Assembly (NCBI RefSeq): GCF_001306135.1
Contig: NZ_LGKP01000046.1
Location: 62,001 to 126,000, forward strand
From: Herpetosiphon geysericola
GTDB taxonomy: Bacteria; Chloroflexota; Chloroflexia; Chloroflexales; Herpetosiphonaceae
Direction: 5' to 3'
Length of the DNA stretch: 64,000 bases
Program-made: the position numbers and the translations under genes
Notes under the pieces: model-generated
What the model was told of the DNA's origin: nothing
Seen by the model: only the letters and a program-made list of their open reading frames with translations
Database searches by the model: none
In this document: piece after piece, positions 41,176 through 48,535 of the stretch
Layout: the number at the start of each line of letters is the position of its first letter
How positions within the stretch are numbered: the stretch's first letter is position 1

Positions 41176-42654
41176 ATGATCAAGCCATTATTGGTAAGTG
41201 CTGATAGCCAGCCCCTTTATCAACAACTTTACCAACATGTGCGCCAAGCGATTTTAAACGGCGAGCTTAAGCGCGGCATGCAATTGCCTTCCAGCCGCAG
41301 CCTCGCTAGCCAACTTAGCCTTTCGCGCAATACCGTGCTGAATGCCTACGAGCAACTAATTGCCGAAGGGTATCTTGAAAGTTATAGCGGCCAAGGCACA
41401 TTTGTAGCGCGCAATCTGCCTGAGCTTGATCTGCCAACGTTGCAATCATCCAACCAAGCAAATCCCAGCCAAGCCCAACATCGCTTAGCTGACCATGCCT
41501 TAGACCAAATTTACGCGCCCCAAATGACCAACAATGCAACCAGCGCGCACTTAATTGGCCAACCGCTCAGCTCGGGCATTCCAGCAATCGCCGATTTTCC
41601 CAGCGGCTTATGGCAACGGTTGCAACATCAACAAATTCGTCATTTAGGCAAGGCCAGCTTAGGCTATCAAGCTGCGAAGGGCTATGCACCGTTACGCGAG
41701 GCAATCGCCAAGCACATCGGATTAACCCGCCAAGTGCAATGCAGCCCAGAGCAAATTTTGATTACAAATGGGGCGCAGGCAGCGCTCAATCTAGCCATTC
41801 ATGGCTTACTCAACGCGGGCGAACAGGTTTGGATGGAAGATCCTGGCTATTTGGGTGTGCGTGGGGTCTTGTTGGGGGCTGGGGCCAGCATCGTGCCAGT
41901 GCCAGTCGATCACGAGGGCTTGCAGGTGGCCAGCGGCATTGCGCTCGCGCCCCATGCCCGCTTGGTGTATGTCACGCCCTCACATCAATTTCCGCTTGGC
42001 AGCACGCTGAGCCTTAGCCGTAGATTGCAACTTTTGGAATGGGCCGCCCAGCAGCAAGCCTATATTCTTGAAGATGATTATGATAGCGAATATCGCTACG
42101 CTGGCCGCCCAATTGCCTCGCTGTATAGCCTTGATCAAGCAGAGCGGGTGCTCTACGTTGGCACCTTCAGCAAAGTGCTATTTCCTGCTTTGCGAATTGG
42201 CTACCTAGTTGTGCCGCCAAATTTGGTTGAGCCGTTCACGCTGTTGCGGCGCTTGGCCGATGTGCATACGCCATTAATTAATCAAGCAACCTTAGCCGAA
42301 TTTATCAATGCAGGCCATTTCAGCCGCCATCTTCATCGCATGTGCCAACTCTATGCTCAGCGCCGCGATTATATGCTGCAATTGCTGCGCGAACTTGGCT
42401 TAGAAGTCAATGCGCCGCCTGCGGGAATGTATTGCACGGCGTGGCTCCCAGCGGGTATTGATGCTCAAATGGTAACCAGCTTAGCGGCACAGCGCGGCCT
42501 CTTGATCGAGAATGTCAACCATTTTGCGTTGCGGCCACTCAGTCGCCAAGGAATTTTGCTTGGCTATGCAGGCTTTAGCCCAGAGCTTATGCGGGCTGGA
42601 ATCGAGCAGCTTGGACAGATTTTACAGCAACTCCAAACTGGTACCATTAACTGA
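41176..42654 (+). CDS. MocR-type regulator (GntR HTH plus aminotransferase domain)
   Basis: 492 aa. Winged HTH of GntR type at the N-terminus: PLYQQLYQHVRQAILNGELK, then LPSSRSLASQLSLSRNTVLN. The rest is a class I aminotransferase-like domain with ILEDDYDSEYRY and the PLP lysine in VGTFSKVLFPALRIGY. These proteins sense PLP or amino compounds. The start at MIKPLLVS is preferred (GAGGAG upstream). An AhpD-like gene follows at 42.7 kb in the same direction and is a likely target. Confidence 0.92.
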   Translation: MIKPLLVSADSQPLYQQLYQHVRQAILNGELKRGMQLPSSRSLASQLSLSRNTVLNAYEQLIAEGYLESYSGQGTFVARNLPELDLPTLQSSNQANPSQAQHRLADHALDQIYAPQMTNNATSAHLIGQPLSSGIPAIADFPSGLWQRLQHQQIRHLGKASLGYQAAKGYAPLREAIAKHIGLTRQVQCSPEQILITNGAQAALNLAIHGLLNAGEQVWMEDPGYLGVRGVLLGAGASIVPVPVDHEGLQVASGIALAPHARLVYVTPSHQFPLGSTLSLSRRLQLLEWAAQQQAYILEDDYDSEYRYAGRPIASLYSLDQAERVLYVGTFSKVLFPALRIGYLVVPPNLVEPFTLLRRLADVHTPLINQATLAEFINAGHFSRHLHRMCQLYAQRRDYMLQLLRELGLEVNAPPAGMYCTAWLPAGIDAQMVTSLAAQRGLLIENVNHFALRPLSRQGILLGYAGFSPELMRAGIEQLGQILQQLQTGTIN

Positions 42655-42733
42655 TCAAAAATTGGCACTGGTAGCAACCACAGCGCTTGCTAGAATACAG
42701 CTATCGAATTTCTTTTGTGTGAGGTTTCTAGCA

Positions 42734-43222
42734 ATGAGAGCTCGTTTAGATTATATGGCAACCCTTCCTGAAGCCTTTAAACCGTTATTAAAATTGAGTG
42801 ACCTTGCGCACAACAGCGGCTTAGAGCCAGCGATTGTCAACTTAATTGAAATTCGCGCTTCGCAAATTAATCGTTGTGGCTATTGCCTCGATATGCACAC
42901 CAAAGATGCCCGCAGCGCTGGCGAAACCGAGCAACGGATTTATGGGCTGAATGCATGGCGCGATACGCCCTACTACAATCAGCGCGAACGCTTGGCGCTT
43001 GAATTAACCGAAGTGTTGACCCAAATTGCCCTAAACCACGTTGCCGACGAGTTCTATCAACGCTTGCTTGGCGCATTTAGCGAAAGCGAATTGGTTAAAT
43101 TAGTTACCGCAATTAGCACGATTAATATGTGGAATCGCTTTGCAATTACCTTCCAAAGCGATGCTGGCAGCTACAAGACCGAGCATTTCGTGGCCCAAAC
43201 AGCCTTAGAAAAAACCCACTAG
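42734..43222 (+). CDS. Carboxymuconolactone decarboxylase / AhpD-like protein
   Basis: 162 aa. The CMD motif is RASQINRCGYCLDMHTKDAR with the redox-active CxxC and downstream His. The start at MRARLDYM is supported by GAGG eight bases upstream; a longer frame begins inside the MocR gene and is rejected. Family members act as peroxiredoxin-reducing disulfide proteins or alkylhydroperoxidases. It is adjacent to MocR and probably regulated by it. Confidence 0.9.
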   Translation: MRARLDYMATLPEAFKPLLKLSDLAHNSGLEPAIVNLIEIRASQINRCGYCLDMHTKDARSAGETEQRIYGLNAWRDTPYYNQRERLALELTEVLTQIALNHVADEFYQRLLGAFSESELVKLVTAISTINMWNRFAITFQSDAGSYKTEHFVAQTALEKTH

Positions 43223-43225
43223 TTT

Positions 43226-43267
43226 TAAATGGCAACACGGCAGGATCAACTGTCATGTTGCCATTTA
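43226..43267. terminator. Bidirectional hairpin at the end of the AhpD-like gene
   Basis: TAAATGGCAACA pairs with TGTTGCCATTTA, and CAG/CTG extends the stem, with imperfect positions between. It overlaps the stop codon of the convergent winged-helix-like gene and so could serve both operons. Confidence 0.75.
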
Positions 43268-43699
43268 AGTGTGCTCTTCGTTGGCTTGATCGTCGAAGTT
43301 TGGCAGATCGCGTGGTGCTGTTGCTTGGTCGAGCGTCTGCCAAAGCGTGGCGATTCTAGGCCGCGCCTGAGGCTCATCATTGGGCGCAGGGCTTTGAGCC
43401 GCAGGATTGTTTGAACGCGGCAGATTGCTGGCTTTGGCGCGCAAATTAACTTTATAGCACCGTGGCTCGCCAGCAATTAAAATGAGATATTGCTGTTCAA
43501 GCAGCGCTGCAAGTGCCTGTTGAATTTCAAGCCCGCTGAATGTTTGAGCATCTGGCAATGCAGCGAGTGCCTCGCCAAGCTTTGGCTCAGCAACCTCACG
43601 CTGGCGCAAAATCGCCCGAATCAGGCTGCGTTCGGCCAAGCTCAAATGCTGAAGATCCAAGATGCTCAGGCCAGCATGGATTTCGTCGGAATGCTCCAT
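43265..43699 (-). CDS. Small winged-helix-like protein with disordered tail
   Basis: 144 aa from MEHSDEI with GGAGTGAGT upstream. The first 95 residues look like a winged helix: LSLAERSLIRAILRQREVAE, LEIQQALAALLEQQYLILIA, then a beta hairpin CYKVNLRAK. The last 50 are Pro/Asn/Ala-rich and probably disordered. Last gene of the six-gene dual-ATPase operon. It may be a regulator or adaptor; the family is not recognised. Confidence 0.65.
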   Translation of the reverse strand: MEHSDEIHAGLSILDLQHLSLAERSLIRAILRQREVAEPKLGEALAALPDAQTFSGLEIQQALAALLEQQYLILIAGEPRCYKVNLRAKASNLPRSNNPAAQSPAPNDEPQARPRIATLWQTLDQATAPRDLPNFDDQANEEHT

Positions 43700-43729
43700 A
43701 CTCACTCCACGGTGATCGGGTGATTCCAA

Positions 43730-44800
43730 TTAGCTCGTTTGGTCGGGCGGACGACGGTCGCGGCGTTGGCGAGCTTCACGCGCTTTTTCTTGCAAATTAC
43801 GGAAGAAATCGCTATCGACAATTTCATCAACTTGCTGTTTGCGCTGGCCCTCATCAACAATAATTTGCAATTCGGCAACCTGTTGGCGCAACTTGTTTTC
43901 CCGTTCGCGCACTTTATCGACCATCATGGCAAAGACGCTGGCAAGCGTCGCAACTTCATCACGCCAGCGACTGCTACTTTCGGGCACTTCGGAGCTATAA
44001 TCGCCATTGCTAATTTGGGTGGCAACCGCAGTTAAGCCAATAATTGGGCGGGTCAGGCGGTGGGCAATCAGATAAACCGCAATCGCCAAAAGCGCGGTCA
44101 CAAGCAAAAAGCCTGGAATAAGGGTTTGGCTAATTCGATTGCGCACAGCAGCTACTTCGGCCACACACAGATCAACCCCAACCGCGCCAACTGTCTCACC
44201 TTTAGCATTGTAAATCGGCGCAGCGCCTGCAATCCATTCGCCCCACTGATCAGTCGATGGATTGGGATCGATGCTTGGTTCGCGCAAGCCACGCGCCATA
44301 TCGGGCGTAAAACCACCAGCCGCCGTAAATGGTGCATTAATCAGCGGGCGGGTATCTGGCCGAATCGTACAGCCAGCGCTTGATTCGCTAGCCAACGCTT
44401 GTTCGCGTGGGGTTGGTGTTTGGCCAGGCGGAATCGCCGCGCTCACCACAAAGCGCGCTTGTTCTGGCTCGTTGGGCAATTGCACAAAGCTATAAATGCC
44501 CGAAGCCTTGGGATTAATCGTTTTAACTTCGCGCAAGTAGGCATTAATTTTGAGATAGGTTGGATCATCGATTTGGCCTTGGGTATACAGCGCGCTATGT
44601 TCATCGCCATCGATACCAGCGGCGGCAGTTTTGGCAATCGCCATCAAATCGGCTTCAAGCTCTGCTTGGGCATTGTTGGTGGCATAATTCAAAAACCAGA
44701 TGAAGACTCCGGTTAAAACACTTAAAAACAACATGGTAAAAATGGCCAATAAACGCCAACGCAGGCTCAAAAAACGGCTTTTAGGTGCTACGGCTGTCAT
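43730..44800 (-). CDS. Cache-HAMP receptor without output domain
   Basis: 356 aa. TM1 (about 13-36: LLAIFTMLFLSVLTGVFIWF), an extracellular Cache/PAS-like domain (about 40-225) with YSFVQLPNEPEQARFVVSAA and GAAPIYNAKGETVGAVGVDL, TM2 (about 228-250) and HAMP (about 250-305). A short coiled tail ends in VDEIVDSDFFRNLQEKAREA. No kinase, methyl-accepting or cyclase domain follows, so the signal must pass to a partner through the tail. Its neighbours in the operon are a GNAT protein and a winged-helix-like protein. Confidence 0.85.
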   Translation of the reverse strand: MTAVAPKSRFLSLRWRLLAIFTMLFLSVLTGVFIWFLNYATNNAQAELEADLMAIAKTAAAGIDGDEHSALYTQGQIDDPTYLKINAYLREVKTINPKASGIYSFVQLPNEPEQARFVVSAAIPPGQTPTPREQALASESSAGCTIRPDTRPLINAPFTAAGGFTPDMARGLREPSIDPNPSTDQWGEWIAGAAPIYNAKGETVGAVGVDLCVAEVAAVRNRISQTLIPGFLLVTALLAIAVYLIAHRLTRPIIGLTAVATQISNGDYSSEVPESSSRWRDEVATLASVFAMMVDKVRERENKLRQQVAELQIIVDEGQRKQQVDEIVDSDFFRNLQEKAREARQRRDRRPPDQTS

Positions 44801-44813
44801 AGAATGCTATTCC

Positions 44814-45626
44814 TCACCGCAACGACGCAAGCGCGTGCTGCACAAAAGGATTATCGTCATCCAAATAGTAAACATCATGGTAAATCGCTTGCACAATTGC
44901 TTGAATTGTCGTGAGCTTCAACGGCTGCTGCTGGCTGGGATAAAAGACTAAATGCATTGGTTGTGGCGCAATTGGCAGTTGGCGCGCTGCCTGCTCGTCA
45001 CTATTTTTTATTACTGGTGGCTCGATATACTCAACTGGCAATAACACAGCACCATTATTGAGATGAAAGCGTAGCCGCGCCTCACGCTCTTGGCGTTCAT
45101 CTTCATGCAGCCCATCCTCAACCCGCGTGACTTCAGCACTATAGCCCAAAACCGCCCCATTGCCGCTATACAAGGCATCAAGCGCCAACTGTTGATGGGT
45201 TGCTTGCACCAACCAACGGCCAATGCCCGTACCGCGCACTTGCTGATTGATGCCGATAAATGCGCCGTGGCCAAAATTACGCCGATACAGATAGCTGAAC
45301 ATACGCACCCCAACAGGCTTGCCATTGTGCTCAATCAGCCACAAATGGTCAAGCGTGGCTGGATGGCTGCGCGAAAACGGCTCTGCATACATGGCCAAAA
45401 ATGGTTCATAATGGGCCAAATGCGGGAAAATTGTGGCGAATAGAGCCTGCACAAGCTCAATCTCGCTGGCCTCAGCCCCCAAAATAGCCCGTAGCTGCAT
45501 GCCCTTGGGCGCATCATGGTTGGCTTGCGGCGGAATCATCGGCCAACGCACGCTATCTTGCAACTTATGCCACAATGGCTCTAATTCGCCAAACTGAGCT
45601 AAGCGCGCCTCAGAACTCGATGCCAT
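44814..45626 (-). CDS. GNAT-family acyltransferase
   Basis: 270 aa. The acetyl-CoA loop is GINQQVRGTGIGRWLVQATH (about 130-150), preceded by HLWLIEHNGKPVGVRMFSYL. N- and C-terminal extensions of about 80 residues are unassigned. The substrate is unknown. Its start overlaps the end of the translocase-like gene by 17 bases and its stop is 13 bases from the receptor gene, indicating tight coupling in the operon. Confidence 0.82.
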   Translation of the reverse strand: MASSSEARLAQFGELEPLWHKLQDSVRWPMIPPQANHDAPKGMQLRAILGAEASEIELVQALFATIFPHLAHYEPFLAMYAEPFSRSHPATLDHLWLIEHNGKPVGVRMFSYLYRRNFGHGAFIGINQQVRGTGIGRWLVQATHQQLALDALYSGNGAVLGYSAEVTRVEDGLHEDERQEREARLRFHLNNGAVLLPVEYIEPPVIKNSDEQAARQLPIAPQPMHLVFYPSQQQPLKLTTIQAIVQAIYHDVYYLDDDNPFVQHALASLR

Positions 45627-46962
45627 CGAGGACGCTCCTTCGTCGAGAGCGCGACAGTCGCCAGTTCAGCAGACTTTTATCGTAGACATGGCGGATGCGC
45701 CAAGCAGCCCACAGGCCAACAGCCGTGGCCAGCAAGGCAAAACCAAGGTACAGCAGCGTGCTTAGCGAAGCGGCTAGCCCACCAAGCCAGCTTGGCAACA
45801 AGATCAGGCTAATCACCCCACAGCCAACGATTGTCGCGAATGAATAACAATAGCTATCAAGAAAAACGCTTACGCGCCCGCGCCGCTCGTCGGGAACAAT
45901 ACTCTGCACCGATTTGCGCAAGGGTTCATCCCAGCCAGTTTGGGCCAAACGCGCCCCAAAACGGCCAATCAACCCGCCAATCAGTGGTTGCGCCAAAGCT
46001 CCCAGAATACACAGCAACAGAACGATGGGCAGCGCGATAAAGGCTTGTTTGGGGCTAGTTTTGCTGAGCAACCGCCCAGCCAACAGCCATTGAAACAGCA
46101 AAAGCACCAGCACAAAACCTAATTTGTAGAAGCCATACAGTTGCTGAAAACGCAACGGATCGGCGGCCACAATCTGGTCAATGCTGCGCAAAAAGTGAAA
46201 TTCGATCACGGTTAACGCCAAGCCAGTTGTAAATAACACCAGCGCTAGCAAGCGAAACAATGGCACATGGCGAATCACATCCAAGCCAGTATTAAAGGTC
46301 GCGCGAATCGATTCGCGTTCACTTTTGCTTTGGCGCGCGCGCAATTCGGATTGATGAAAGATCAGCCAGACGAAGCCAATCCCCAAAAAGCAGAAGCCAG
46401 CGCATAAACCAAGCACCAAGTTCGTGTTGTCGTGGTCGTTACCAACCATCCATGTGGCGATGAGCGCTGCCAGGCCGTTGCCCAAGAGGCTGCCGATGGT
46501 CGCGCCTGCGCCAAGCAAGGGAAATAAACGCTTGGCCTCGGACGTGGCATAAATATCATTGGCTAAGGCCCAAAATGCCAAGGGAAATATGGCATATTGC
46601 TGTTCGTTGAGGATCGATAAGGCTGGATAAAGCAGCCAAGCAGGAGCCTTGAACCAAAACAGCGCCAACAGCCCCAGATAGCAGGCACCAAAACCAGCCA
46701 ACAAGCGCTGAATCAGCTTGACCCGCTCAGTTCGATCAACAATCAGCGCATAGCTGCCAGCAGCAACAATCGTCAGCAACATGCCAACTGGCCAAAGCCA
46801 CAAGAGCTGTTCGGTGCCAAGGCTGCTAATAAAGCCTGCCATGGCCACCACATCGGCCAGTTCAAGCACCAACGTATTTAATCCCAGCAAGCCCATGAGC
46901 GCAAGCACCAAGCGCCATTCTTGCGGTTGGACTTTTAAGCCTTGTTCCAAGCGTTTGAGCAT
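45610..46962 (-). CDS. NTP/NDP-translocase-like (MFS-related) membrane protein
   Basis: 450 aa, about 12 predicted membrane helices. FWALANDIYATSEAKRLFPL followed by LGAGATIGSLLGNG matches the signature region of ADP/ATP translocases of the Tlc type and their free-living bacterial relatives. Whether it exchanges nucleotides is unproven; homologues in free-living bacteria may be sensors or transport other substrates. It is third in the six-gene operon, after the two ATPases. Confidence 0.78.
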   Translation of the reverse strand: MLKRLEQGLKVQPQEWRLVLALMGLLGLNTLVLELADVVAMAGFISSLGTEQLLWLWPVGMLLTIVAAGSYALIVDRTERVKLIQRLLAGFGACYLGLLALFWFKAPAWLLYPALSILNEQQYAIFPLAFWALANDIYATSEAKRLFPLLGAGATIGSLLGNGLAALIATWMVGNDHDNTNLVLGLCAGFCFLGIGFVWLIFHQSELRARQSKSERESIRATFNTGLDVIRHVPLFRLLALVLFTTGLALTVIEFHFLRSIDQIVAADPLRFQQLYGFYKLGFVLVLLLFQWLLAGRLLSKTSPKQAFIALPIVLLLCILGALAQPLIGGLIGRFGARLAQTGWDEPLRKSVQSIVPDERRGRVSVFLDSYCYSFATIVGCGVISLILLPSWLGGLAASLSTLLYLGFALLATAVGLWAAWRIRHVYDKSLLNWRLSRSRRRSVLDGIEF

Positions 46963-47005
46963 GCAGCTCGCATCCTTTGCGCAAGTACAACAATGTCCGC
47001 AGCGA

Positions 47006-47758
47006 TTAAGCGGTCAGGGTTGCAGCCACATTAGTCAACAGTAGGGAGATAGGATGGTCGGGATGGTCGACAACAAAAATATGGGCGTTGGCATCGGTTG
47101 CTGGCTGATACTCGGCCAACAATTCGGCGTAGGGCAAGGCAGCCAAGACCGGGCGTTGATAAATTTGTTCGATTTTTTGCTGAACTTCGCGCAAATTATA
47201 ATGCTCAGGAATTTGGTTGACAACCAGCACCATCTCGTCAATGCCAAGCTGCTCGGAAATATCGATCACCACGCCAGTACCTTGCAAATCTTGCTCGCGC
47301 AATTGCAACACCAGCAGCTGAATATCGGAAAAAGCAATGGATGGCAAGGCAGCAAATTGCACACCTGGTTGGGTATCAATCAACAACACATCCAAGCCCA
47401 AAGTATTGATCAACAGCTCGAAACTATCGCTAAGCAAGAGAATATCGTAATCGATTGTGCTATTGCGGGTGGCAAATGGCACGAGATACAGCTGACCTTT
47501 GAGGGCATGGCGAATGCTAGAGTTCAGCTCAACGGCTGTCGCTTCGATGCCACACTTGCCCCAGAGAAAATCATTCAGGCTATGGGTGATCGCGCTATCA
47601 GCCACGCCAAAAATCGCTTGAATTGAGGGCGAGCTAACATCACTATCAATAATTGCGACCCGTTGGCCAGCTGCTGCCAAGATCGTCGCAATATTAGCAG
47701 TTAATTGCGATTTACCAGTGCCTGGGCGAAACGAATGGATCGAAATAATCTTGGGCAT
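47006..47758 (-). CDS. MinD/ParA-like ATPase B
   Basis: 250 aa from MPKIISIHSF. The Walker A region reads HSFRPGTGKSQLTANIATIL: the P-loop is kept, but the signature Lys of the deviant Walker A is Arg and a Gly is Pro. Walker A' is VAIIDSDVSSPSI and Walker B LDVLLIDTQPGV. It is a close paralogue of the next gene, probably a membrane- or complex-associated switch rather than a cell-division MinD. No MinE or MinC is nearby. Confidence 0.88.
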   Translation of the reverse strand: MPKIISIHSFRPGTGKSQLTANIATILAAAGQRVAIIDSDVSSPSIQAIFGVADSAITHSLNDFLWGKCGIEATAVELNSSIRHALKGQLYLVPFATRNSTIDYDILLLSDSFELLINTLGLDVLLIDTQPGVQFAALPSIAFSDIQLLVLQLREQDLQGTGVVIDISEQLGIDEMVLVVNQIPEHYNLREVQQKIEQIYQRPVLAALPYAELLAEYQPATDANAHIFVVDHPDHPISLLLTNVAATLTA

Positions 47759-47782
47759 GGATGCCTCGCCATCATTCCACAA

Positions 47783-48535
47783 TTAGACTAAGCGATTGGC
47801 GACCGCGCGTAAGGATTGAGTTAATGGATGATCGGGATATTGCAACGCGAAAATGCCTGAACTTGCAAGGGTCATCATCTCATCGGAGTGCGGCAAGACG
47901 GCGGCAACCTCGGCGTTGTAGGTTTTTTCGACTCGGGCCTTGACCTCAGCAAAGTTGAACGAGGTTGGCACTTTATTGACCAATAAAAAGAGCTGCGGCA
48001 CATCCAATTTATGCGCCACATCAACCGTCACCCCAGTGCCTTGATAATCTTGCGAGTCTGGGCGCAAAATAATAATCAACGCATCAGAGATCGCAATCGA
48101 GAGCAAGGTTTCTTCATTCAAGCCAGGGTGCGTATCGATCAACAACACATCGAGCTTCAGCTCCTCGACCAAGCGATGAAAACCATCGTTGAGCAAGCCC
48201 ACATCGTAGCCTTCACGCAGCACGCGGGCAATTTCGCCAGCCTTAATGCTCGAAGGAATCAGAAAAATTTGGCCTGCATTCAAGCCCTTGACCTTGGAGC
48301 TAACATCGTAGGCCGCTTGCTTGATTTCGCATTTGCCCCACAAATAGTCGTTGAGCGAATATTTCATGCTGGCATCGTCGAGGCCAAAGAGCACGTGAAT
48401 ACCAGGCGACATGATATCGGTATCGATAACCCCAACCCGCCGACCAGTCGCGGCAATCAGGCTGGCGAGATTAGCAGTTGTGTTTGATTTACCCGTGCCA
48501 CCCCGAAACGAGTGGATTGAAAGAATCTTCGACAT
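47783..48535 (-). CDS. MinD/ParA-like ATPase A
   Basis: 250 aa. Walker A HSFRGGTGKSNTTANLASLI (Arg replaces the signature Lys), A' VGVIDTDIMSPGIHVLFGLD, Walker B LDVLLIDTHPGLNEETLL, and the adenine-binding segment LFLLVNKVPTSF. First gene of the operon; AGGAG lies nine bases before the ATG. It is homologous along its whole length to the following ATPase B, indicating tandem duplication. Likely a dimeric switch for the downstream receptor/transporter set. Confidence 0.88.
   Translation of the reverse strand: MSKILSIHSFRGGTGKSNTTANLASLIAATGRRVGVIDTDIMSPGIHVLFGLDDASMKYSLNDYLWGKCEIKQAAYDVSSKVKGLNAGQIFLIPSSIKAGEIARVLREGYDVGLLNDGFHRLVEELKLDVLLIDTHPGLNEETLLSIAISDALIIILRPDSQDYQGTGVTVDVAHKLDVPQLFLLVNKVPTSFNFAEVKARVEKTYNAEVAAVLPHSDEMMTLASSGIFALQYPDHPLTQSLRAVANRLV

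Follow-up and report, generated by a model that had tools for sequence, protein, structure and literature searches.

ATPases of the MinD/ParA family have an established role in spatial positioning. These proteins act with partners such as MinE, ParB, PomX, TlpT and McdB, and those known to activate the ATPase do so with short, positively charged extensions (PMC7993993, PMC10241942). Chemoreceptor arrays, for example, are positioned by PpfA-TlpT and by ParC. A different group of proteins, the Cache-HAMP chemoreceptors and sensor kinases (WalK, KinD, DcuS), carry MCP, HisKA or HATPase domains behind their input half. The IcfG cluster, in which PP2C and STAS proteins act by partner switching, has been linked to carbon regulation (PMC12329169). 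Here, we describe an operon of six genes that has features in common with these systems and with the NTT carriers. It is located in a 64,000-nucleotide stretch of DNA (contig NZ_LGKP01000046.1, positions 62,001 to 126,000, assembly GCF_001306135.1; this whole stretch is referred to as the window) from Herpetosiphon geysericola, a member of a genus of gliding soil bacteria, and encodes two MinD-like ATPases (M1 and M2), a carrier, a GNAT-like protein, a receptor with a distinctive C-terminal tail, and a small winged-helix protein.

M1 is like the MinD/ParA proteins in its fold, P-loop Lys, DxD and DTxPG switches, and the tail is like their partners in being a short basic element on a modular protein. 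However, M1 has an Arg in place of the signature Lys, has no membrane-targeting sequence as judged by its length, and is paired with a degenerate paralogue, and the partner here is a C-terminal tail common to many types of sensor. McdA of Synechococcus elongatus is likewise a MinD/ParA ATPase without the signature Lys (PMC6328274), but it has Ser at this position, a separate partner (McdB), a role in carboxysome positioning and no receptor tails. The receptor has the same input half as WalK, KinD and DcuS, whereas a novel tail takes the place of their MCP, HisKA and HATPase domains. The carrier belongs near NTT and NTT-HEAT-cNBD carriers and may be a member of an unfused clade that the NTT work of Major et al. 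did not connect to MinD or receptor genes. Finally, gene types of the IcfG operon adjoin M1, tail and carrier genes in several lineages, but the operon as described includes neither M1 nor the tail. In a literature search with subscription journals mostly outside its scope, we found no description of the tail, the tail-MinD link or the composite operon, and none joining MinD with NTT, HAMP tails, GlgX or Herpetosiphon. Known families account for the parts; what appears to be new is their arrangement and the tail.

We hold, with moderate confidence, that this operon represents, in Herpetosiphon, a widespread signaling module in which many inputs are directed to one ATPase. Judged from alignments and gene neighborhoods, a conserved tail is swapped among many sensor types; this tail is inherited almost strictly with M1, a member of an RGGTGK family of MinD-like ATPases; and M1 is often paired with M2, the winged-helix protein and an NTT-like or other multi-pass carrier, and in several phyla with an IcfG-type cluster. 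The window operon consists of six co-directional open reading frames with the following features (coordinates in the window).

47783..48535, minus strand: M1, RGGTGK-type MinD-like ATPase, 250 amino acids (motifs SFRGGTGKSN, DTDI, DTHPG)
47006..47758, minus strand: M2, degenerate M1 paralogue, 250 amino acids (motifs SFRPGTGKS, DTQPG)
45610..46962, minus strand: NTT (TLC ATP/ADP translocase)-like / MFS carrier, 450 amino acids (PF03219, MFS_1)
44814..45626, minus strand: GNAT acetyltransferase-like protein, 270 amino acids (PF00583; 17-nucleotide overlap with the carrier gene)
43730..44800, minus strand: Cache-HAMP receptor ending in the common tail, 356 amino acids (HAMP PF00672, AlphaFold, Foldseek)
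43736..43906, minus strand: receptor tail, 57 residues (ungapped alignment, no known family, co-inheritance with M1)
43265..43699 (ATG at 43699), minus strand: small winged-helix protein with a C-terminal (I/L)W..LD motif (family alignment, AlphaFold/Foldseek)
43223..43270, minus strand: terminator hairpin at the operon end (RNA folding against shuffles)

The distribution of the tail closely followed that of M1. M1 (E < 1e-40) was detected in 31 of 251 Chloroflexota genomes, and the tail core (E < 1e-7) was present in 30 of these 31 and in 0 of the 220 M1-negative genomes (Fisher 5e-38). Counted by genus, the tail occurred in 17 of 18 M1-positive and 0 of 144 M1-negative genera (P 4e-22). M1 and the tail were found in the same 2 of 101 Deinococcota genomes and the same 1 of 189 Myxococcota genomes, with no tail in the other 99 and 188, respectively; these two samples were centered on an M1-positive genome, and their weight rests on the absence of the tail elsewhere. 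All genomes reached via M1 loci (9/9) matched a longer tail model. Among 72,556 plasmids, 7 had the tail, 13 had M1 and 6 had both; the cyanobacterial co-occurrence rests on plasmids only. A metagenome-assembled genome (MAG) labeled Pleurocapsa minor (L137, JAHHHY010000001.1) was rejected as cyanobacterial, because the phylum sample drawn around it repeats the Chloroflexota genomes; it is probably misnamed. A tail search that included HAMP matched 172 of the 251 genomes, mostly by HAMP alone, and was replaced by the tail core only. The genome search begins with a filter step, and rare misses are possible.

Proximity points in the same direction. Tail genes lay within 10 kb of M1 in 32 of 59 cases, and a tail gene abuts M1 in Rhizobium (4-nucleotide overlap), Kovacikia, Nostoc, Myxococcota and Thermoleophilia. 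A genome has up to 4 tail proteins compared with one or two M1 genes. The tail model detects tails at a distance from M1, with no match in M1-free Chloroflexota, Deinococcota and Myxococcota genomes. These genome counts and neighborhoods strongly support a functional coupling of the tail and the M1 ATPase.

HAMP (PF00672) is the sole Pfam match of the receptor. Its AlphaFold model (pLDDT 79) contains a transmembrane segment, a Cache-like domain, a second transmembrane segment, HAMP, a coil, a break at residues 329/330 and a helix of residues 331-349. Foldseek matched the Cache-like domain to WalK (3e-10), KinD, DcuS and CitA. No kinase, MCP or cyclase domain was detected by profile searches or in the AlphaFold model. 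A plain chemoreceptor was rejected because only HAMP and no MCP signaling hairpin was found, and a histidine kinase because neither the profiles nor the model revealed HisKA/HATPase domains.

The tail, i.e., the last ~57 residues of the receptor, aligns without gaps across 57 columns with 50 diverse proteins. It has the pattern of a coil (RE..L......L....D), a break and a helix (I[TV].[TS][DE][FY][FY]..L...A...R), with D18 and R46 each conserved in 87 of the 88 proteins compared. The tail carries a net charge of just ~+1.5 and ends in a basic stretch with the invariant Arg. No Pfam, NCBIfam or PDB family or structure covers the tail, and its model had 0 matches in reversed sequences. The inputs joined to it include cyclic nucleotide (cNMP)-binding, dCache-HAMP, REC-GAF, HisKA-REC-GAF hybrid, cyclase-FHA, CHASE3-HAMP and GAF-HAMP forms and, on cyanobacterial plasmids, CHASE2 and GAF proteins. 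Some tails have a repeated TETDYF motif. On a plasmid of Nostoc sp. UHCC 0926 (L098:5036-6850), a dCache-HAMP-tail receptor encoded immediately upstream of M1 carries a fused Nif11 leader-type domain, and other cyanobacterial copies are inside Nif11/NHLP bacteriocin clusters (L100, L101). A preliminary description of this DNA, made from the sequence alone, had presented the receptor as output-less and the operon as resembling an envelope-sensing system. The Cache-like domain, HAMP and conserved tail of that account stand. The receptor does not appear to be output-less, because its tail is conserved and co-inherited with M1; the tail is probably its output toward the ATPase. Envelope sensing applies to the window variant but not to the module as a whole, in which the tail is also found on soluble cNMP, REC, GAF and cyclase proteins.

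Both ATPases have the sequence S-F-R-(G/P)-G-T-G-K-S, with Arg at the position of the signature Lys of the deviant Walker A box (KGGxxGKT), which is absent in M1 and M2. The fetched loci yielded 155 distinct ATPase relatives, of which 128 have RGGTGK(S/T)N, typically with DTDI-like and DTHPG motifs. Arg and GGTGK are kept in essentially all M1 relatives and the P-loop Lys (GK[ST]) in every aligned sequence; M1 also has D38, DTDI and DTHPG, as is characteristic of the MinD/ParA family. M1 orthologues in 30 other Chloroflexota genomes share 50-98% identity with it, and those in Cyanobacteria, Deinococcus and Rhizobium plasmids share 56-63%. The remaining ATPase relatives are mostly of a degenerate second type (RPGTGKS, RRGTGKS or ARAGIGKS; DTHAG, DTAAG, etc.). 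Such a second MinD, of the M2 type, adjoins M1 in common operons at more than a dozen loci from several phyla, including a Deinococcus plasmid. The degenerate forms grouped strongly in a maximum-likelihood tree, which required 2 changes compared with 17 after shuffling, although its deep branches were poorly separated. The motifs set the two ATPases apart: M1 has the canonical form of its own family, and M2 is degenerate, retaining the P-loop Lys and the DxD Asp.

The closest solved structures to M1 are MinD proteins (best sequence match 1hyq, E 3e-21). M1 was ruled out as a cell-division MinD by the cut-offs of the curated models (TIGR01968, 53.4 versus 212.9 bits; TIGR01969, 90.8 versus 201.75), and a separate KGGVGKT MinD-like gene is present elsewhere in the genome (L003). 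The M1 family ends uniformly ~241 residues past the signature Arg, and E. coli MinD extends ~18 residues further; by this length argument only, the M1 C-terminus has no room for a MinD-type membrane-targeting helix.

Other members of the module were surveyed in 79 GTDB loci around M1, where counts are lower bounds owing to contig ends. The winged-helix family was found in at least 47 loci, the tail in at least 44, tandem cyclases in at least 24, a 70-residue zinc-ribbon protein and the NTT-like carrier in at least 23 each, PrsW-like proteases in at least 22 and GNAT in at least 6. Almost all parts occur in one run in 'Ca. Aquidulcis' (L183), a Thermoflexales locus (L122) has all six window gene types and a second tail protein, and a Deinococcus plasmid (L097) has the order M1, winged-helix, tail, M2, carrier, tail.

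The window carrier matched PF03219 with 34.4 bits (gathering cut-off 21) and MFS_1 with 35.7, and reached 32.3 bits versus a cut-off of 387.2 with the NTT superfamily model TIGR00769; it also had a weak match to the plant NTT1 structure 9j3j. Many of its relatives carry fused HEAT and cNMP domains, an extension that is known for NTT proteins (PMC5381601) and that the window carrier lacks. At three loci (L055:6626-8716, L181:3560-6613 and L057:3781-5862), the place of the NTT-like carrier after M1 is taken by a protein that resembles aromatic amino-acid permeases and has an additional N-terminal region (EVLGGMP.KRA). The model of the winged-helix protein matched MecI, BlaI and cullin WHB folds with Foldseek probability 1.0 but E values of only 4e-3 to 4e-2; these PDB folds are generic winged helices, compatible with DNA binding or a protein adaptor. 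The family alignment has a conserved C-terminal (I/L)W..LD motif. The GNAT protein matched PF00583 with 28.5 bits (cut-off 20.7); judged from the survey, it is an optional part of the module, because it was found in only 6 of the 79 loci. The zinc-ribbon protein (L042:12651-12869 and 22 other loci) contains CWxC... and CxFCGRxVCKDH, ends in PQPEPIxMPExY, and matched no family above the Pfam cut-off.

A cluster of AGE epimerase-STAS-GlgX-STAS-REC-SpoIIE phosphatase genes runs directly on into the module in Deinococcus, Chloroploca/Oscillochloridaceae, Thermoflexales and an Anaerolineae MAG. The loci with an IcfG-type cluster continuous with M1, tail and carrier (L053, L097, L122, L124, L139 and L147) cover several lineages in two phyla. 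In Nostoc NIES-3756, M1 is beside AGE-STAS-GlgX, and a CHASE2-tail protein on the same plasmid is beside STAS, an ATP-binding protein and PP2C. A relative with 42% identity occupies the same place on Streptomyces plasmids.

The genes of the window operon, from M1 to the winged-helix gene, are separated by 24, 43, -17, 13 and 30 nucleotides, with a single true overlap. The terminal hairpin (-26 kcal/mol, z -4.85; 0 shuffles equally stable) is followed by a T run, GGGTTTTTTC. Because of the short gaps, the overlap and this hairpin, the operon is likely a single transcript; a promoter scan gave a signal no better than in shuffles. All six genes are found together in five Herpetosiphon genomes, with the core locus occurring once per genome and genus-wide. 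A Herpetosiphonaceae MAG has five of the six, and its contig stops before the sixth; most of them are also present in Thermoflexales, 'Ca. Aquidulcis' and the Deinococcus plasmid. The preliminary description had proposed a six-gene operon with one transcript at 43265-48535, and both the location of the six minus-strand frames and, as likely, the transcript agree with our analysis. It had also named a gene order confined to this strain as a finding that would count against it, and the order is conserved well outside the strain. Its reading of Arg for the signature Lys in both ATPases is borne out by the sequences, its winged-helix assignment by the AlphaFold model, and its view of the ATPases as a likely switch is supported. 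In H. aurantiacus, an alpha/beta hydrolase gene, absent from the window strain, is between the receptor and winged-helix genes (L039:13421-14275). Directly beyond the hairpin, which it has in common with the operon, is a convergent gene (42512-43222, plus strand), carboxymuconolactone decarboxylase/AhpD-like by eye; a similarly annotated gene is near the CHASE2-tail gene of Nostoc NIES-3756.

In the mechanism that we propose, ligand binding at the Cache domain would alter both HAMP and the coil of the tail. The amphipathic helix at the end of the receptor (331-349), which ends in the conserved Arg, would dock on an ATP-bound M1 dimer or M1:M2 heterodimer and set ATP hydrolysis or the dimer state of M1. 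M2 would hold the nucleotide, probably hydrolyze it poorly, and serve as a regulatory partner. In the window operon, the winged-helix protein may be the adaptor through which the membrane carrier reads the ATPase state; where present, adjoining PP2C/partner-switch proteins may also read it. Several points weigh against this reading. The contact between tail and M1, its direction and its output are inferred, and the poor ATPase activity of M2 is a guess given the retained P-loop Lys and DxD Asp. Scattered tail genes not near M1 account for 27 of 59, one M1-positive Chloroflexota genome (MAG G185, 80% complete) is without the tail, and the loci used to build the tail model had been chosen for their M1, although the model was then tested on M1-free genomes. 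The output differs among loci, with a carrier that is NTT-like, of the aromatic amino-acid permease type or absent. IcfG-type STAS, SpoIIE/PP2C and GlgX genes are absent from the window and from the surroundings of the operon; no REC-SpoIIE phosphatase is beside the window operon, and the genome shows dispersed PP2C-type matches only.

We suggest more tentatively, as a possibility that we hold with some doubt, that the module is a distinct class of signal transduction, of a rank comparable to one- and two-component systems. Cache, cNMP, REC, GAF, CHASE and cyclase receptors would have one docking tail, a MinD-fold pair (active M1, degenerate M2) would be the sole receiver, and the relay to a carrier or to PP2C/STAS switches would use ATPase dimerization instead of phosphotransfer.

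The main rival to the signaling reading, which we judge unlikely, is a positioning system. M1 (with M2) would then be a ParA/MinD-type positioner, and the tail a cargo adaptor or ATPase-activating peptide that distributes or clusters receptors and soluble regulators, in which case the ATPase would not have to be involved in passing on the stimulus. The established function of the family and the basic end of the tail with its invariant Arg, reminiscent of the charged extensions of known activating partners, favor this possibility, and McdA positions its cargo despite loss of the signature Lys (PMC6328274). However, the tail has a long coil continuous with HAMP or a linker, is not a free N-terminal peptide and is only weakly charged, and M1 has too little length for the MinD-type membrane-targeting sequence. 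In addition, one cargo per ATPase is usual, whereas here cNMP, REC, GAF, Cache and cyclase proteins have a common tail, and the linkage to PP2C/STAS clusters is a better fit to signaling.

It is improbable that the tail has the partner-switch phosphatase, or the winged-helix or zinc-ribbon proteins, as its direct target, with M1/M2 as a maturation or chaperone-like ATPase for the carrier and co-inheritance arising because all parts are needed. REC-SpoIIE phosphatase genes directly before M1 at several loci, the carrier genes that are common neighbors, and a match of M1 to the PF10609 (NUBPL/Mrp) model are consistent with this explanation, but in Rhizobium, Thermoleophilia and Nannocystaceae loci the tail follows M1 without phosphatase, carrier or zinc ribbon, and M1 is the only component that constantly accompanies the tail. 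We consider very improbable a conflict or defense system of multicellular prokaryotes, of the kind with inactive MinD/ParA domains beside cNMP cyclases and peptidases. Taxa and domain types overlap (PMC7159879), and some cyanobacterial copies are in ribosomally synthesized and post-translationally modified peptide (RiPP)/bacteriocin clusters; against this, PADLOC on the six proteins gave generic ATPase matches to PDC-M28B only, no toxin or nuclease effector was found, the single genus-wide core locus of Herpetosiphon is unlike patchy defense islands, and the IcfG linkage points to carbon regulation. An ordinary operon of unrelated genes, as GNAT and the hydrolase as variable members might suggest, is scarcely credible given the co-inheritance (P ~5e-38 per genome, 4e-22 per genus) and the recurrence of M1, M2, tail, winged-helix and carrier genes across phyla.

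The signaling and positioning readings differ in what they predict on loss of M1, an effect on signaling in one case and on receptor localization in the other, and the tail motif I[TV].[TS][DE][FY][FY]..L...A...R is short enough for peptide binding, which makes the question directly testable. If the signaling reading is true, many proteins annotated as 'cache', 'GAF', 'cNMP-binding' or 'response regulator' without an output would gain one. The NTT-like carriers of free-living bacteria, the REC-SpoIIE phosphatases beside IcfG clusters and the 'MinD/ParA family' orphans would acquire a common context. Overall, a fold known for the positioning of chromosomes and division sites would also receive the signals of a general sensory system.

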